A stretch of DNA of 64,000 bases from Bifidobacterium thermophilum DSM 20210 (GTDB lineage Bacteria; Actinomycetota; Actinomycetes; Actinomycetales; Bifidobacteriaceae). Where the stretch lies: NCBI GenBank assembly GCA_000771265.1, contig JDUB01000001.1:186001-250000 (forward strand). The letters are read 5' to 3'. Shown piece by piece: positions 6,011 through 59,897 of the stretch. A program made the translations under genes and the position numbers. The notes under the pieces are model-generated. The model searched no databases, was not told the origin of the DNA, and was given only the letters and a program-made list of their open reading frames with translations. Positions within the stretch are counted from its first letter, which is position 1, and the number at the start of each line of letters is the position of its first letter.

Positions 6011-6602
6011 CGCGTGTCGTTTTTACATGGGAACGTAACCATCCTTGATATCACAGCTAATTGCTGATCTTTGTCGGTGTTTGGTGATGCTTGGTGATGC
6101 TCAGTCTTGGTGGGGTGGCGGTGAGATTTGGTTGCGGGTTGTATGCGGTTGTGATAGCGGGTGGCATCCGGTGGATGGCGACGGGTGGCGGTGAATGTGT
6201 TGTGCCGGTGAATGGCGTCGACGAATGACGGTGATTTGGCAGTGGTGAGCGGGTAGCGGATGGTTAGTGCTTAGGACATGGCGGCTCTTGATATTCCTTG
6301 CTGCTTCATCAATGCTGCGTTCCACTTAGCCTGTCGCGCACTGAACCCGCCAGGTCGCTGATTTCCCCGAACTTACCAAGCCGCTGTGTCCGTGGAATCT
6401 GCCGAACCCGTCGTGCCGCCGATCCTGCTCAGCCCGTCGCGTCCACTGAACCAGCCGTGCCCACTGAACCGGCCATGCTCACCGAACCCGCCAATCCCAC
6501 CAGCCCCACCGAACCCCAAACCCACCGCGCTCATCGTACTCGCGATCCCATCAATCGCACCAGCCCCACCGAACCCACCAAGCTTGCCGCGCTCACCGGC
6601 CC
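6011..6602. other. Non-coding, strand-skewed low-complexity stretch upstream of proS
   Basis: About 6050-6250 is G/T-rich on the plus strand (repeated GGTG/GGCG words) and switches near 6300 to C/A-rich text with degenerate CCNACCGAACC words running to about 6600. A reading frame is open across 6298-6732 in phase with proS, but its translation is only low-complexity Pro/Thr/Ala text and I do not regard it as coding. No RNA gene, T-box or clear promoter was recognised. Confidence 0.5.
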
Positions 6603-6674
6603 CACCGACGCCACCGCGCCCACCGACGCCACCGCGCCCACCGACGCCACCGCGCCCACCGACGCCACCGCGCC
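6603..6674 (+). repeat. Four perfect 18-bp tandem repeats upstream of proS
   Basis: The unit CACCGACGCCACCGCGCC is repeated exactly four times (6603-6620, 6621-6638, 6639-6656, 6657-6674). In the proS frame it would read as (PTDATA)4. It lies 59 bp before the chosen proS start. Being a perfect tandem repeat, copy number may vary between strains by slippage. Confidence 0.9.
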
Positions 6675-6732
6675 CGCGATGCCAGCAGACGCTCGTCCCC
6701 CAATGTCCCATAACGCGAATACCTTGGGATTC

Positions 6733-8553
6733 ATGAGTTCCAAAGCACTTCGTATGTCTACGCTGTTCCTGCGCACGCTGCGCGAGGATCCTGCCGATGC
6801 GGATGTCGATTCCGCGAAACTGCTGCAACGCGCCGGGTACATCCGCAAAGCCGCTCCAGGCATCTGGACGTGGCTGCCGCTCGGCCTGCGCGTTCTCGAT
6901 AAGATCGAGGGCATCATTCGTGAGGAAATCAACGGTATCGGCGCCCAGGAAGTGCATTTCCCGGCCCTGCTGCCCCGCGAACCGTACGAGGCGACCCACC
7001 GCTGGGAAGAGTACGGCGAAAACATCTTCCGTCTCAAGGACCGCCATGGTGCGGATTATTTGCTGGCCCCCACGCATGAGGAGATGTTCACCCTGCTGGT
7101 CAAGGACATGTACTCCTCGTACAAGGACCTGCCGGTGACGCTTTACCAGATTCAGACCAAGTACCGCGACGAGTTCCGCCCGCGCGCCGGTCTGATTCGC
7201 GGCCGCGAGTTCATCATGAAGGACGCTTACTCCTTCACCGTTGACGAGGAGGGCATGCGCAAGGCCTACATGGACGAGCGCGGCGCCTACGAGCGCATTT
7301 TCACCCGCCTTGATTTGAAGTATGTCCCGGTGTTCGCCATGTCGGGCCCGATGGGCGGATCTGCATCCGAGGAGTTCCTTGCCCCGATGCCGATTGGCGA
7401 GGATACCTTCGCGCTTGCCCCGTCCGGCAAGGCTTGGAACGTAGAGGCGCTGACCACGCCGGAACCGCCGGTCGAGGATTATTCCGACACTCCTGCCGCC
7501 GAAAAGGTCCCGACCCCTGACGCGATGAGCATTGACAACATGGTCGCGCGCGCCAATGCGGATCATCCGCGCAGCGACGGCCGTCAGTGGCAGGCGAGTG
7601 ACATCCTGAAGAATGTGGTCATCGCCGTCAAACACCCTGAGGATGCCGACCATGATAAGCCGTGGCGCGAACTCGTGGTTGTCGGTGTGCCCGGCGATCG
7701 CGTTGTCGATATGAAACGTCTGGAAGCCCAGTTCACCCCCGCCGAGATTGAGGAAGCGACCGAGGATGACTTGAAGGCGCATCCGGAGCTGGTCCGCGGC
7801 TATATTGGCCCGATGGCCCTTGGCCCGCAGGCTGCGGCGCGCGGTGTCGAGCACCCGATTCGCTATTTCGTTGACGCGCATATCGCCCACGGTTCCGCGT
7901 GGTTCACCGGTGCCGATGAGCATGAAGTCGACTACTACAACCTCGTGTATGGCCGTGATTTCACCGCCGACGGCACTGTCGAGGCCGTCGAGGTTCGCCA
8001 TGGCGATATGAGCCCGGATGGTTCCGGCCCGCTGAGCTTCGAACGCGGCGTGGAAATCGGTCAGGTCTTCCAGCTTGGTCTCAAGTATTCCAACGCGCTT
8101 GGCCTGAAGGTCCTCGATCAGAACGGCAAAGCCGTCCCGGTGTGGATGGGCTGCTACGGTATCGGCGTCAGCCGTGTGCTCGCGTGCGTCGCCGAAACCC
8201 ATCATGACGACAAGGGTCTGGCCTGGCCTGCAGTCATCGCCCCGGCCCAGGTGCATGTCCTCGCCACCGGTAAGAACGCCGAGGCCTTCGACGCCGCCGA
8301 AAAGCTGGTCGCCGAACTTGAAGATCGTGGCATCGAAGTGCTGTATGACGACCGCAAGAAGGTCTCCCCGGGTGTCAAGTTCAAGGATGCCGAGCTGATT
8401 GGCGTGCCGCTGGTCGCTGTCGTCGGCCGTGACACGGTCAACAACGGCACGATTGAGGTGCGTGACCGTGACGGTTCGAACTCCGAGGCCGTCGCCGCCG
8501 ATACGGCTGCGCAGACCATCGCCGACCGTCTGGCCGCATTGCTTGACAAGTAG
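6733..8553 (+). CDS. proS: Prolyl-tRNA synthetase (class II, bacterial type)
   Basis: A 606-residue enzyme that charges tRNA-Pro. Class II motifs are visible: motif 1 near [18 protein letters not shown], motif 2 in [25 protein letters not shown], and motif 3 in [14 protein letters not shown]. The region between motifs 2 and 3 (about residues 220-400) is the INS editing domain of bacterial-type ProRS, and the C-terminus is an anticodon-binding domain (QVHVLATG...VLYDDR...[13 protein letters not shown]). The start [19 protein letters not shown] matches bifidobacterial ProRS N-termini. No convincing RBS lies upstream of it or of the alternative ATG at 6703, so a leaderless or weakly initiated mRNA is possible. 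The frame is open a further 145 codons upstream (see repeats). Confidence 0.95.
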
Positions 8554-16246: not shown

Positions 16247-16778
16247 TTGTGAGTCGTGGCTCACAATCGGTTGTGTTCTGTCGTGTCGGTGCGTGGATGA
16301 GCGTCGTCAGCGTGTTTGGTTGTGAGTGGCGGCTCACAACCAGTGGGTTGAACAGCGCCTTTCAGTAGTCGCTTCTCCATTCATGTTGTCGATTGTGAGT
16401 GACAGCTCACAACCAGTCGTAATCTGTCGTGTCAGTGCGTGGATGAGCGTCGTCAACGTGTTTGGTTGTGAGTGGTGGCTCACAACGTGGGCGCAGTGGG
16501 TCCCAACCTATGGCTGTTCTGTTCGTTCGCGCTGCAGATTGTGAGTGGCGGCTCACAATCAGCGGTGTGGAATATAGTCCGGCGGCCGATAGCCGTCGCT
16601 CTGATCGTTGGTTGTGAGTGGTGGCTCACAACCAACAACAAAGAGAAGCTGTTCGCGGTCGTCATTGATTGCGTCGTGTTGTCGATTGTGAGTGACGACT
16701 CACAACCAGAACAGAGGTGCGGTCAGTGCCTCTCAAATGCGTGGCGTTTGCCAGCGTGTTGTGAGCGACGACTCACAA
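16247..16778 (+). repeat. Phased palindrome array A: 8 copies of TTGTGAG-N6-CTCACAA
   Basis: Copies start at 16247, 16320, 16393, 16466, 16539, 16612, 16686 and 16759, each 20 bp, with spacings 73, 73, 73, 73, 73, 73 (74 once) and 73. Seven copies have both arms intact; the last has GAGC for GAGT. The 53-bp spacers are partly homologous: that after copy 1 (16267-16319) and that after copy 3 (16413-16465) match at 46 of 53 positions. At copy 6 the pairing extends outward (GTTGG/CCAAC). No coding frame here is credible. It lies in the convergent gap between gltA and the DUF1304 gene. Confidence 0.95.
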
Positions 16779-18825: not shown

Positions 18826-19356
18826 TTGTGAGTGGTGGCTCACAATCGGTAAGTGGAGTGGTTGCATCTGTAGTTGTTTGGGGCGCCCTGTTGTTGGTTG
18901 TGAGTGGCCGCTCACAATGTGGGTGTGTTGGGTCCCGTTCTGCTGCGGTTCTGCTCGTTCATGCTGTTGGTTGTGAGTGGCGGCACACAATCGGTTGCGT
19001 TCTTGTACGTCGAGTACACGGAGAGCAGTCATCAAGGTGTTTCGTTGTGAGTGGTGGTTCGCAATCGATGGTGTGGAATGCTGTCCGTTGGTTGGTTGTT
19101 GGTGTCCTTATCGTTGGTTGTGAGTGGGGACTCACAATATGGACGCAGCAGACCCGTTCTGCGGCTGTTCTGTGTGTCAATATCGTTGGTTGTGAGTGGG
19201 GACTCACAACCAACGATACTGGCCTGTCGGTCGGTGGTTGGTTATTGCCGCTCTTGTCGTTGGTTGTGAGTGGGCGCTCACAACCAGTTGTGTTCTTATG
19301 CGTCGGTGCAGGGACAGCCATCGTCAACCTGTTTTGTTGTGAGTCCCGGCTCACAA
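18826..19356 (+). repeat. Phased palindrome array B: 8 copies
   Basis: Copies start at 18826, 18898, 18971, 19045, 19118, 19190, 19264 and 19337, with spacings 72, 73, 74, 73, 72, 74 and 73. Copies 3 (CACACAA right arm) and 4 (GGTTCGCAA right end) are decayed; the rest keep both arms. Several spacers resemble array A spacers: those after copies 3 and 7 resemble the one after A copy 1, those after copies 2 and 5 resemble the one after A copy 4, and the one after copy 4 resembles the one after A copy 5. Copy 6 has a full six-base outward extension (CGTTGG/CCAACG). Confidence 0.95.
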
Positions 19357-19621: not shown

Positions 19622-20638
19622 ATGAACATGAACACCGTTGAACATCGAAGATCGGGGCTGATGACGCAGGCAAATGGCCGTCGCACCGAAACGACTCAGG
19701 TCCGTCTGTTACGTATCCAAGCTGAGACGCTGATCCGTTGTCGTGAACTTCAGGCGCGCGCCGCTTCCCCGCTGATTTTTGCGCTGAGCACCGCATTGAA
19801 ATTGCTGTGCATCGATGTGCCGAATGAATTGAATCATGACGAGTTGGTCGTGGTCGCGGATTCGCAGAAAACTCGCAGACGGATCGCGGGCGTCCGCTGC
19901 GTGTATTGGAGCTATCCCACGCGGCTGGTGCATCTTGAGGGTATTACGTGCGTCGCGCCGGATACGACGTGGCTGATGTACGCACGTCGTTCGAGGCTGG
20001 AATCGTTGGTGTTGCTGGGCGATGCGTTCATGCGCAGGGATAGCGATCAACGGTGGATGACGTTGCGTGATTTTCGCGATTCGTGCCATGCGACGCATGA
20101 GCAGATTCGAAAAGCCAAGCGAAGAATGCCGGCGGGCACTGTGAATTCTCGCAGAGCCATGGTGCTGATGAGGGAGAACACTGATTCTGTCCGAGAAAGT
20201 GAATTGCGGTTGATGCTGCTGTCCTATGGCTTGCCGATGCCGCAAGTCAATCCGCACGTCGATATCAGGAATGACACCGGGCAGGCGAACGTGGGCGGAC
20301 GTCGGCGATTCTTCCTCGACCTTGCATATTCTGAGTGCAAAGTCGCTGTGGAATACGACGGTAAACAGCATGCGAGCAATTGGGAGGAGGATGTTCGCCG
20401 TCGTACGTTGCTCGAGGATGCTGGCTGGATGTGCGTGAATGTCACCTGGAATGATATGCGCAGTGATGTTGAACGACGCGCGCTCGCTGTAAGTGTGGCC
20501 TCGCGCCTGGAACGCCGGTCGGGGAGGAAACATGCCGTGACAGGGCCGATTCCATTGCGACGATTGGCTTCTCGCTTGCTGCGGATAGATAAAGAGGCTG
20601 ATGATTCTATGACCGAGAAGGCTGATGCGCACGGTTGA
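19622..20638 (+). CDS. DUF559-type (Vsr/PD-(D/E)XK-like) nuclease-fold protein
   Basis: A 338-residue protein. Residues about 190-300 (SELRLMLLSYGLPMPQVNPHV...RRFFLDLAYSECKVAVEYDGKQHASNWEEDVRRRTLLEDAGWMCVNVTWND) match the DUF559 family, related to Vsr and PD-(D/E)XK nucleases; the FLDLAY...VAVEYDGKQH segment carries the expected acidic residues. The N-terminal part contains a segment resembling actinobacterial AbiEi-like proteins (VVADSQKTRRRIAGVRCVYWS...VAPDTTWLMYARRS), but no clear helix-turn-helix. Such proteins are common singletons in actinobacteria, and their role (DNA repair, defence or none) is unsettled. The start codon lacks a strong RBS. Confidence 0.75.
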   Translation: MNMNTVEHRRSGLMTQANGRRTETTQVRLLRIQAETLIRCRELQARAASPLIFALSTALKLLCIDVPNELNHDELVVVADSQKTRRRIAGVRCVYWSYPTRLVHLEGITCVAPDTTWLMYARRSRLESLVLLGDAFMRRDSDQRWMTLRDFRDSCHATHEQIRKAKRRMPAGTVNSRRAMVLMRENTDSVRESELRLMLLSYGLPMPQVNPHVDIRNDTGQANVGGRRRFFLDLAYSECKVAVEYDGKQHASNWEEDVRRRTLLEDAGWMCVNVTWNDMRSDVERRALAVSVASRLERRSGRKHAVTGPIPLRRLASRLLRIDKEADDSMTEKADAHG

Positions 20639-21652: not shown

Positions 21653-22365
21653 TTGTGAGTGGTGGCTCTCAATCATGCGGCAACAAGTCCGAATACGTCG
21701 TCACCCGTCCGTGCATCCCACTTGATTGTGAACGTCCACTCACAATCACCCACAATGATCTTGGGTGATGAAGGCATCGCTGTTTGCTCTGACGATGATT
21801 GTGAGCACTGACTCACCTTGCGCACACGAATGAGCAATTGCCGGCGACTGATATGGTCTCTCCCCGTCTGATTGTGAGTTGTCACTCACAACTGTTCGTT
21901 TGTATGTCCCAACTGGTAGCTGAAGCCGACCGATGACTGGTAACTGGTGATTGGCGATAGGTGGCTAGTCGCTGCTAACTGCTGGCTGCTGACGACTGAC
22001 GGTGACTGGTGAGAGCTGGCATCGTTGACATAGCTTGGCGGGTTGCGAGCGCTGGCTCACAATTAGGCGCAGGGGCCGTGGTGATTGGCGACCGTAGGGG
22101 GCCTGGAGCTTCGGTTGTGTTTGTCGACTCACAATCAGATAGGGGAAGATCGCGCTCGCCGCATGATAGCGGGGGAGGTTGCGCTTGACGCCCAGATATT
22201 GGTGAGTGCTGACTCACAATCAGATCGGAGAAAGGCCAGCTCGTGGCCCAATGGGAGCGGGATCACAGAAAAATGTGAGTACTGACTCACAATCAGGGCA
22301 GGGGAGACGCGTGTGTCGCGCGTGGTACGTGATTTCGGAGTTGGGCTGTGAGTGCCGGCTCACAA
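21653..22365 (+). repeat. Phased palindrome array C: 9 partly decayed copies upstream of prfB
   Basis: Copies start at 21653, 21726, 21799, 21872, 22043, 22115, 22200, 22273 and 22346. Spacings are 73, 73, 73, 171, 72, 85, 73 and 73. Most copies carry arm substitutions (for example GTGAACGTCC at copy 2 and CTCACCT at copy 3), so this is the most decayed array. The 171-bp gap (21892-22042) holds low-complexity ACTGGT/CTGCT text where one unit may have been lost. The last copy ends 70 bp before the prfB GTG. The array begins inside a short minus-strand frame that I do not consider a gene. Confidence 0.9.
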
Positions 22366-27901: not shown

Positions 27902-28877
27902 TTGTGAGTGGCGACTCGCAATCAAACTGTGAAATCGTGAAACGTCCCACGATTGTTGTCCTCTTCGCGTTGATTGTGAGTGACTGTTCACAACCTGAGC
28001 AGACCTGGGCGGTTGTTCTTGACAAAATCATCTCCGGTTACTGATGTTTGTGAGTGACTGCTCACAAACAAGGCGAATGAAACTGTCCCGGAGAAGATTT
28101 CCTGCCATTGTTCGGCTGATTGTGAGTCGCCGTTCACAACCTTGGACGATTGCGCGTTGTATCTACTGTCATCCGCACTCGTTGCATCATTGTTTGTGAG
28201 TGGCGACTCACAAACAAAATAGTGGAGTGCGTGAATAGGGACGCTGACGAGGTCACGGCCGTTTGATTGTGAGTGATGACTCACAATCTTGTTGTTGAAT
28301 CGATTGATGATGGTAATCGTGGTGGGAGTTGACGGAGCCACGGCTCACGATTGTGAGTGGTGACTCCGAGCTTGATTCGTGAAATCGGGAGATAGACATG
28401 TGATTGACACAGAAAATCACCCGTTGTGAGTGGCGACTCGCAATCGACGTTTTTTCTGCGGTGGCATAAGAGACTGATGCGATGCTGGCGGCTGGTTGTG
28501 ACTGGCGGCTCACAACGATTGTTGATCAGATGTCGGGTGGTGGATGTCGGCGGTTGTTTTGCCATTGATTGTGAGCGGCGGCTCACAATCTGTGATGTAG
28601 TGCGGCAATTACGAAGAGATGCGTGTATCCCGCCATTGCTGGTTGTGAGTGGGACACACAGTCAATGCCGGAACTGTCTTGTGAGAGAGATCTGCAGTCC
28701 TATTGTCGTTGATTGTGAGTGGGGACTCACTAGGTCTCAGCAGGAAATTGTCGGTAACGAATATGTGGCATGGAACCGCTGCTGGTTGTGGGTGGGGACT
28801 CACAATCGGTTGGATGATGGGCGCAAAGGGTATGCGCCGATAAGGGGTCGCCGCCGGTGGGTAGTGGTGACTCACAA
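27902..28877 (+). repeat. Phased palindrome array D: 14 copies between the CHAP gene and smpB
   Basis: Copies start at 27902, 27974, 28048, 28120, 28194, 28267, 28351, 28424, 28496, 28569, 28643, 28713, 28786 and 28858. Spacings are 72, 74, 72, 74, 73, 84, 73, 72, 73, 74, 70, 73 and 72. Copies 7, 11, 12, 13 and 14 have damaged arms, and copies 1 and 8 have CTCGCAA right arms. Copies 3 and 5 use TTTGTGAG...CTCACAAA, so outer bases differ from the usual GG/CC but still pair. Unlike A and B, most D spacers look unrelated to each other by eye. It is non-coding. Confidence 0.95.
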
Positions 28878-59000: not shown

Positions 59001-59897
59001 TTGTGAGTGGTCGCTCACAACCAATGAGTCGTTCATACGATAGTGTGCGGCGGCCGCCCCGCACTGTACTTTGTTGTGAGTGGCGACTCACAATCAAGTA
59101 CGGCGATCGGTCGGAGCAGATACGTCTGGTGGGTAAATGCCACTTCGTTGTGAGTGATGACTCACAATCAATGAGTCGTTCGTGCGGCAATGTGTGTCGA
59201 CTGCCCTACGCTGTTGTTGGTTGTGAGTGGCGACTCACAATCAACGTGAGGGTAGGTCATTGTGGATGCGACTGGTGAGCCGATGCCACTTCGTTGTGAG
59301 TGGTCGCTCACAGTAACGTGACAATCCCTCCGTTGCACCTATTGTCCGTGCGATATTACCTATTGGTTGTGAGTCGGTGCTCACAATCGGCAGACAACTC
59401 GTGTGGCGGCGTTCGGGGTTTCCGCCGTTCAACCACTGGTTGTGAGTAGCAACTCACAACCAACGCGCTGTTCGTGTGGAAGCATGCGTCGGTCGCTCTG
59501 CGCTCGAGCTAGTTGTGAGTGGTCGCTCACAACTAACGGGGCAGTGAGCCGTCGTGGGGTGGTTCGTGAGCTGATGTCTCTTCGTTGTGAGTGGCGACTC
59601 ACAGCCAACGAGAGAGAGTGCGGTGTTCCGATGCGAATCCGCAGACGTTGATGCGTCGTTGTGAGTGGCCGCTCACAATCAGCATGAGCGATTGTCCATC
59701 GTGGGCGCGGTGGTGTGTGAAAGTTCTTTGGTTGTGAGTGGCGACTCACAATTGGAAGATGGGTCGGGGTATGCGCGGTCTGGATGGTCTGACCGAGTTG
59801 TTCGTTGTGAGTGGTCGCTCACAATCAGCGTGAGGGTTGGCCATTGCAGGTGCGGCTGTTGAGTGGAAGCTCTTTGGTTGTGAGTGGCGACTCACAA
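59001..59897 (+). repeat. Phased palindrome array E: 13 copies, the best preserved
   Basis: Copies start at 59001, 59074, 59148, 59221, 59294, 59367, 59440, 59513, 59585, 59659, 59732, 59805 and 59878. All spacings are 72-74 bp (73 in nine of twelve). Eleven copies keep both complete arms; copies 5 and 9 end in CTCACAG. Spacers after copies 1 and 3, and after copies 10 and 12, are recognisably similar, indicating growth by two-unit duplication. At copy 13 pairing extends eight bases outward (CTCTTTGG/CCAAAGAG). It lies between the dehydrogenase and a membrane-protein gene, both on the minus strand. It is non-coding. Confidence 0.97.

Follow-up and report, generated by a model that had tools for sequence, protein, structure and literature searches.

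The 73-bp-period palindrome arrays described here are, in our moderately confident reading of sequence data, rows of duplex sites at which a dimeric protein would bind; the likeliest candidate is the DUF559 protein encoded between such arrays, and the combination suggests an undescribed repeat-plus-enzyme system. The analysis began from array E, a row of 13 palindromes in a 64-kb stretch of DNA (hereafter the window; C1:186001-250000 of a 2.22 Mb genome in 48 contigs), which also contains four sister arrays and the candidate partner gene:

16247-16778, + strand: array A, 8 class I palindromes
18826-19356, + strand: array B, 8 class I palindromes, on the upstream side of the DUF559 gene
19622-20638, + strand: DUF559 gene flanked by arrays B and C; its 338-aa product has a PD-(D/E)XK/Vsr-like domain at the C terminus
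21653-22365, + strand: array C, 9 class I palindromes of mixed center orientation, on the downstream side of the DUF559 gene
27902-28877, + strand: array D, 13 class I palindromes, in the interval between a CHAP gene and smpB
59001-59897, + strand: array E, 13 class I palindromes at intervals of 72-74 bp

All 13 palindromes that the initial annotation had placed in array E at a period of about 73 bp were recovered, with + strand starts at 59001, 59074, 59148, 59221, 59294, 59367, 59440, 59513, 59585, 59659, 59732, 59805, and 59878, and hence with intervals of 73, 74, 73, 73, 73, 73, 73, 72, 74, 73, 73, and 73 bp. Eleven of the 13 match TTGTGAG-N6-CTCACAA exactly and the other two (59294 and 59585) carry one mismatch each; the site at 59440 is better read on the - strand. 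When up to three mismatches are allowed, the window contains 51 matches to this pattern, all of them in arrays A to E, as compared with a mean of 2.2 and a maximum of 7 in 100 dinucleotide shuffles. The five arrays are all intergenic, lying between predicted genes. Elsewhere in the window, tandem repeats of 18 and 36 bp occur at 6443-6675, within a long open reading frame (6298-8553).

Across the window genome, the pattern with up to two mismatches has 124 forward matches (4 for a reversed control pattern), and exact pairs at the array spacing number 52 (0 for the reversed control). At least 25 arrays are present: the five class I arrays of the window, and 20 arrays of a second class in the stretches fetched. 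The class I consensus is approximately TGRTTGTGAG-YGGYGR-CTCACAAYCA, while class II, with the consensus TGTGAGGATTNRCTCACA, forms short arrays on at least 11 contigs; the two classes have the GTGAG half-site in common. A third class, TGCGTATG-N6-CATACGCA, was found in B. apri, again with a period of 73 bp. In that species, a class II array is followed directly by a class III array at L135:10203-11206, and L023:5063 holds class III sequence that is not beside the DUF559 gene of that class.

Weight matrices for classes I and II identified 461 sites and gave no matches in 160 kb of shuffled sequence. Class I intervals are 72 bp (17 cases), 73 bp (83), and 74 bp (25), with few others, and class II intervals are likewise 72 bp (14), 73 bp (145), and 74 bp (52), with few others; among these sites, no class I site has a class II neighbor within 400 bp. 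The sharp 73-bp peak forecast by the initial annotation is therefore present in both classes, and the lesser peaks it expected near 84 and 146 bp exist but are small (84 bp once, 85 bp twice, and a few at 144-147 bp). B-DNA has about 10.5 bp per turn, such that 73 bp is close to seven turns. The mean periods of 73.12 and 73.21 bp correspond to approximately 10.45 bp per turn over seven turns, in agreement with the seven-turn spacing originally proposed. The off-period class I spacings (63, 82, 84, 85, and 85 bp) lie near six or eight whole turns (P = 0.03, or 0.01 with the two 85s counted as one event). Two observations run against our preferred reading: the off-period class II spacings are out of phase with the helix, and successive intervals do not show the negative autocorrelation that an absolute phase would produce (r = +0.11 over 249 pairs).

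A strict triple pattern, which overlooks arrays with mismatches, occurs in four of 112 genus genomes: 26 times in the window genome (G000), 71 in B. apri (G008), 11 in B. boum (G014), and 5 in B. thermophilum (G101); these are the four array-rich genomes. Among 84,980 species genomes, a pair pattern identified 60 stretches, 57 of which belong to B. apri, B. boum, or B. thermophilum; B. minimum, Pseudoscardovia radai, and Paractinoplanes lichenicola account for the other three, one stretch per species. The first two of these three are true 73-bp arrays; the Paractinoplanes lichenicola match, with spacings of 44, 58, and 71, was rejected as such. Beyond the four main species, 73-bp GTGAG arrays are thus seen at L018 (B. 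minimum, a species with class II arrays) and at L062:1010-1172 (Pseudoscardovia radai), and no DUF559 gene was found in these two 8-kb stretches. Viral contigs contained neither arrays nor a DUF559 relative.

The product of the DUF559 gene at 19622-20638 is probably the partner protein of the class I sites. In each of the four array-rich genomes, this gene has class I units to its left and right, with 8 + 6 units (gaps of 268 and 1020 bp), 6 + 5 (689 and 245 bp), 11 + 4 (198 and 151 bp), and 10 + 8 (272 and 151 bp). Its orthologs in the other three array-rich genomes are 82, 68, and 68% identical, and the identity elsewhere is at most 43% among the matches listed. Some homolog of this protein exists in 81 of the 112 genus genomes; among the matches listed, orthologs of at least 68% identity are confined to the four genomes with strict triples. 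A paralog in the window genome (C12:112475-113446) is bracketed by class II units, 9 at a gap of 82 bp and 4 at a gap of 123 bp, the 4 units extending to the contig end, and its B. apri relative (67%) is located among class III units, of which 10 stand to one side and 4 lie close by on the opposite side. Manual merging of 16 matched pieces gave 12 DUF559 genes for the four genomes, 6 of which are bracketed by 73-bp arrays; another of the 12, at L136, is flanked left and right by an inverted motif pair. At L175:430-1375 (B. thermophilum, contig C9), a 135-bp tandem array occurs upstream of a further, distant one of the 12, with an inverted pair on its other side.

Several of these observations weigh against the assignment of the arrays to DUF559 proteins. 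The most serious objection concerns class II: arrays of this class exist in B. boum and B. thermophilum, but a DUF559 gene flanked by them was not found in either species, and B. minimum has class II arrays as well. Since classes I and II have a half-site in common, the class I protein may serve both. The B. apri ortholog of the class II gene is, as noted, flanked by class III units. Furthermore, 4 of the 12 genes, which are more distant, have no tandem array within 1.5 kb; a few inverted pairs occur there.

The association of DUF559 genes with regularly spaced motifs extends to other bifidobacteria. We scanned 19 DUF559 loci, representing 18 further species and one more locus of B. apri and selected mainly by homolog rank, using 18-base windows with at least 14 matches at all lags of 30-120. 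Twelve of the 19 contain a ++-- cassette, in which a motif occurs twice in direct and twice in inverted orientation; its direct copies are offset by exactly 42 bp (four turns), and all strict matches were at lag 42. Cassettes occur on both sides of the gene at five loci (L138, L140, L141, L148, and L154) by strict matching and at two more (L139 and L152) by looser matching. The motif sequences vary from species to species, and the 42-bp spacing is constant. Control loci matched in 9 of 97 cases, all of them from array-bearing species at a lag of 73 or 74; the 33 controls from other genomes, mostly shorter stretches (127 kb vs. 135 kb of DUF559 loci), gave no cassettes. In G001, the cassette motif has 29 occurrences (0 for the control) at nine places, two of which flank the DUF559 gene; if this density is assumed to be typical, and if loci are treated as independent although relatives are not, the chance of 12 in 19 is about 2e-14. 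At six cassette loci, one cassette is separated from the DUF559 gene by a large Amidohydro_3 gene, and because this gene intervenes, the cassettes were rejected as simple transposon ends at those six. Counting against the DUF559 reading, strict cassettes are absent from 7 of the 19 loci, and a second set of 30 DUF559 loci with 1.5-kb flanks matched at 1 of 12 within the genus and 0 of 18 outside it, in a test that requires inverted copies, that overlooked the class II-flanked gene of the window genome (L194), and that misses some cassettes lying further off.

The DUF559 protein scores 29.1 bits against PF04480 (cut-off 20.6), and the residues D233, E244, G247, and H250 are invariant in all 25 aligned homologs. 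In a PDB profile search, the top match was 3hrl, which is endonuclease-like (E = 0.02). From these features, we infer that it may be an active nuclease. The N-terminal part (∼200 residues) has no Pfam match, and structure prediction from three sequences gave a poor model, with a pLDDT of 45.9. A search with PADLOC returned one weak match (E = 0.018), for a homolog, and none for the two proteins submitted from array species. Across the order, 204 of the 297 genomes sampled contain homologs, as found with one query protein.

The arrays could instead be sites of a chromosome-organizing or centromere-like protein, with the DUF559 genes merely located in insertion-tolerant regions. Tandem palindromes at whole helical turns would be expected of such sites, and their places are conserved; in addition, all class I pairs of the window genome fall in one 44-kb segment (50 of 52 pairs being listed), and the class I stretches of the three related species are likewise confined to one contig region each. 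However, the three classes each bracket their own DUF559 gene, as the 42-bp cassettes do in other species, and more than 20 dispersed arrays are ill suited to a single centromere. Both dnaA and parB are on contig C47, away from the class I region, and no parA/parB-like genes were found adjoining the class I arrays, the ParB_N match being on C47 and the arrays on C1. We consider this explanation unlikely. Agreement of site orientation with local GC skew was seen for 15 of 16 class I arrays and 28 of 51 class II arrays; a leading-strand orientation was dropped as a candidate given that the class I arrays all share one region and that class II reaches only 28 of 51. Many arrays (L013-L072 and those of the window) are themselves strongly skewed in G/C between strands, by up to ∼0.6, and are usually G-rich on the strand of the site orientation, with exceptions.

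If the arrays were operators, through which DUF559 (or a neighbor) represses its own gene and a regulon, palindromic dimer sites and the closeness of arrays and cassettes to DUF559 genes (gaps of 14-1020 bp) would both be accounted for. This role is improbable, as units occur on both sides of the gene and arrays elsewhere have no preference for promoters. By a simple ORF caller, the class II arrays lie in 15 convergent, 13 divergent, and 18 tandem gene contexts, with 5 at a stretch edge, and the class I arrays in 2 convergent, 4 divergent, and 9 tandem contexts, with 1 at a stretch edge; no promoter or transcript bias was detected in these contexts.

Comparison between species gives no support to the idea of a single local element, as arrays recur at orthologous intergenic sites and are tied to DUF559 genes. 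The places of arrays B, D, and E are also occupied in related species, that of array D (between the CHAP gene and smpB) holding an array in B. apri, B. boum, and B. thermophilum. Many class II arrays are positionally conserved between species as well, with 33 orthologous pairs usable; among the incomplete set of loci compared, no counterparts were found for 4 of the 19 own stretches (L114, L116, L118, and L126). At 26 of 26 smpB loci examined in other species, no 73-bp GTGAG array was present. Another Bifidobacterium (G084) has a 62-bp tandem repeat upstream of smpB, at approximately 1142-1331 of L087. Unit number varies between species by whole units (e.g., 3, 2, and 6 at one place), and spacers common to related arrays are in preserved order. 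The spacers of array D are common to B. apri, B. boum, and B. thermophilum, and absent from array D of the window genome. Array D is more similar between species than its flanks are; a recombination hot spot was rejected, as identity does not rise toward the arrays over the 33 orthologous pairs. Identity between B. thermophilum and B. boum reaches 97-98% at four pairs of loci (L019/L053, L035/L067, L038/L069, and L058/L059), whereas other species pairs are nearer to 85-90%, which suggests mosaic exchange between species.

The initial annotation had also stated that spacers drift in sequence while the period is kept. This applies to much of the data, in that 160 of the 354 spacers across all arrays examined have no detectable relative, and it is less apt for array E itself, where some spacers are recognizably related to one another, with two kinds alternating. 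At different loci of one species, 71 similar spacer pairs were found, many of them in one 53-member cluster that is largely from B. apri, and this similarity suggests copying between arrays. These recognizable copies in array E and B. apri, together with the whole-unit differences between species, are what would be expected if the 73-bp period were a functionless by-product of tandem duplication. Such an origin is nonetheless decidedly improbable: most spacings are within 1 bp of 73 despite the many spacers without a relative, and differently sequenced motifs elsewhere keep exactly 42 bp. The arrays are not recent tandem copies with conserved spacers, and three differing classes share one 73-bp period; the spacing, instead of the spacer sequence, thus looks constrained.

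Inverted repeats of this kind can fold. Across 149 class I sites, the arms showed no covariation at any position (z of 1.8 at most); a first-pass signal came from class II-like sites misfiled as class I and was gone after reclassification. Among 213 class II sites, the core is nearly invariant and hence carries little information, with a single instance of an inner pair altered in both arms. Covariation at two class II positions beyond the core (z = 5.9 and 3.6) is not expected of a pure duplex site and counts against our reading. Because compensatory changes are missing from the class I arms, a duplex protein site fits class I better than an RNA hairpin does. Action of the arrays as RNA or single-stranded hairpins (transcribed repeats, terminators, or stabilizers), for which the capacity to fold and the class II changes speak, is highly improbable in view of the class I result, the lack of any tie to transcription direction, and zero Rfam matches in the window at gathering scores.

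For the DUF559 protein as the dimeric partner, the following mechanism may be proposed. Each palindrome of ∼26 bp (half-site ∼TGRTTGTGAG, 6-bp center) would hold one dimer, and the center-to-center distance of seven turns would align neighboring dimers along the same face of the helix, where they could touch or be bridged. In this group, DUF559 genes carry their own palindrome class on either side, with copies dispersed in intergenic DNA. Units are gained or lost as wholes, probably via recombination between palindromes, and seem to be copied between arrays. Cutting or nicking by DUF559, followed by repair, might spread or maintain the units. DNA binding, nuclease activity, and any such spread or maintenance by this protein are each deduced from sequence. 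We more tentatively propose, as a possibility we would not yet bet on, a REP-like class independent of RAYT, in which bifidobacterial DUF559 proteins each have their own phased sites around the gene, spread or maintained by cutting or nicking and repair, with protein and site class co-evolving such that the motif is specific to a species or paralog and the spacing is fixed, at 73 bp (seven turns) in one group and 42 bp (four turns) in others.

If this is true, the widespread and functionally uncharacterized DUF559 family would gain a DNA partner in bifidobacteria, and REP-like repeat systems would have arisen with an enzyme unrelated to RAYT. The many paralog-motif pairs, in which the spacing is constant, offer natural material for learning how the protein reads DNA and what role helical phase plays. 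Whether dispersed palindromes are selfish or useful has long been debated, and that question could become testable in a genus that is both harmless and cultivable.

Several known systems resemble the one described here. As in CRISPR, short repeats are separated by many unrelated spacers of fixed length, whose order is kept between relatives; unlike CRISPR, the repeats vary within an array instead of being near-identical, and many small arrays occur genome-wide. CRISPR-like acquisition was rejected: no phage match was found for array E and no plasmid match for array D, and in class II the spacers are not free of pattern, showing weak preferences by position as well as a faint dyad midway between sites. 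The centromere of plasmid F, sopC, is bound by SopB and comprises 12 palindrome-containing repeats of 43 bp. It is similar in its tandem palindromes at approximately whole turns and in being bound by a dimeric protein (as proposed here), but the present arrays are chromosomal and numerous, and their spacers are not conserved. With the DUF559/Vsr-like endonucleases (PF04480; PDB 3hrl), the partner gene has in common a score above the profile cut-off and the conserved active-site set; it differs in the additional ∼200 N-terminal residues and in its linkage to repeats. No prior description of such repeats in bifidobacteria, or of a linkage between repeats and DUF559, was found in titles and the openings of abstracts, a scope that mostly excludes subscription literature, and a word search of the main text of PMC3733652 and PMC12306157 found no mention of Bifidobacterium or DUF559.

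The closest parallel is with the REP/RAYT systems, in which dispersed extragenic palindromes form several classes per genome, each beside its own single-copy enzyme gene, with some tandem clusters (PMC3116915). No GTAG or CGTC tag is apparent in the palindrome consensus, and Y1_Tnp (PF01797), which 7 of the 112 genus genomes have, was not found in any of the four array-rich genomes; because of this absence, membership in RAYT/REP proper was rejected. Like REP/REPIN-RAYT, the system described here has dispersed extragenic palindromes, with classes I, II, and III and the species-specific cassettes beside an enzyme gene of their own, DUF559 taking the place of RAYT. It differs in that this enzyme has a predicted nuclease fold of the DUF559 type, and in that its arrays are tandem and helically phased.
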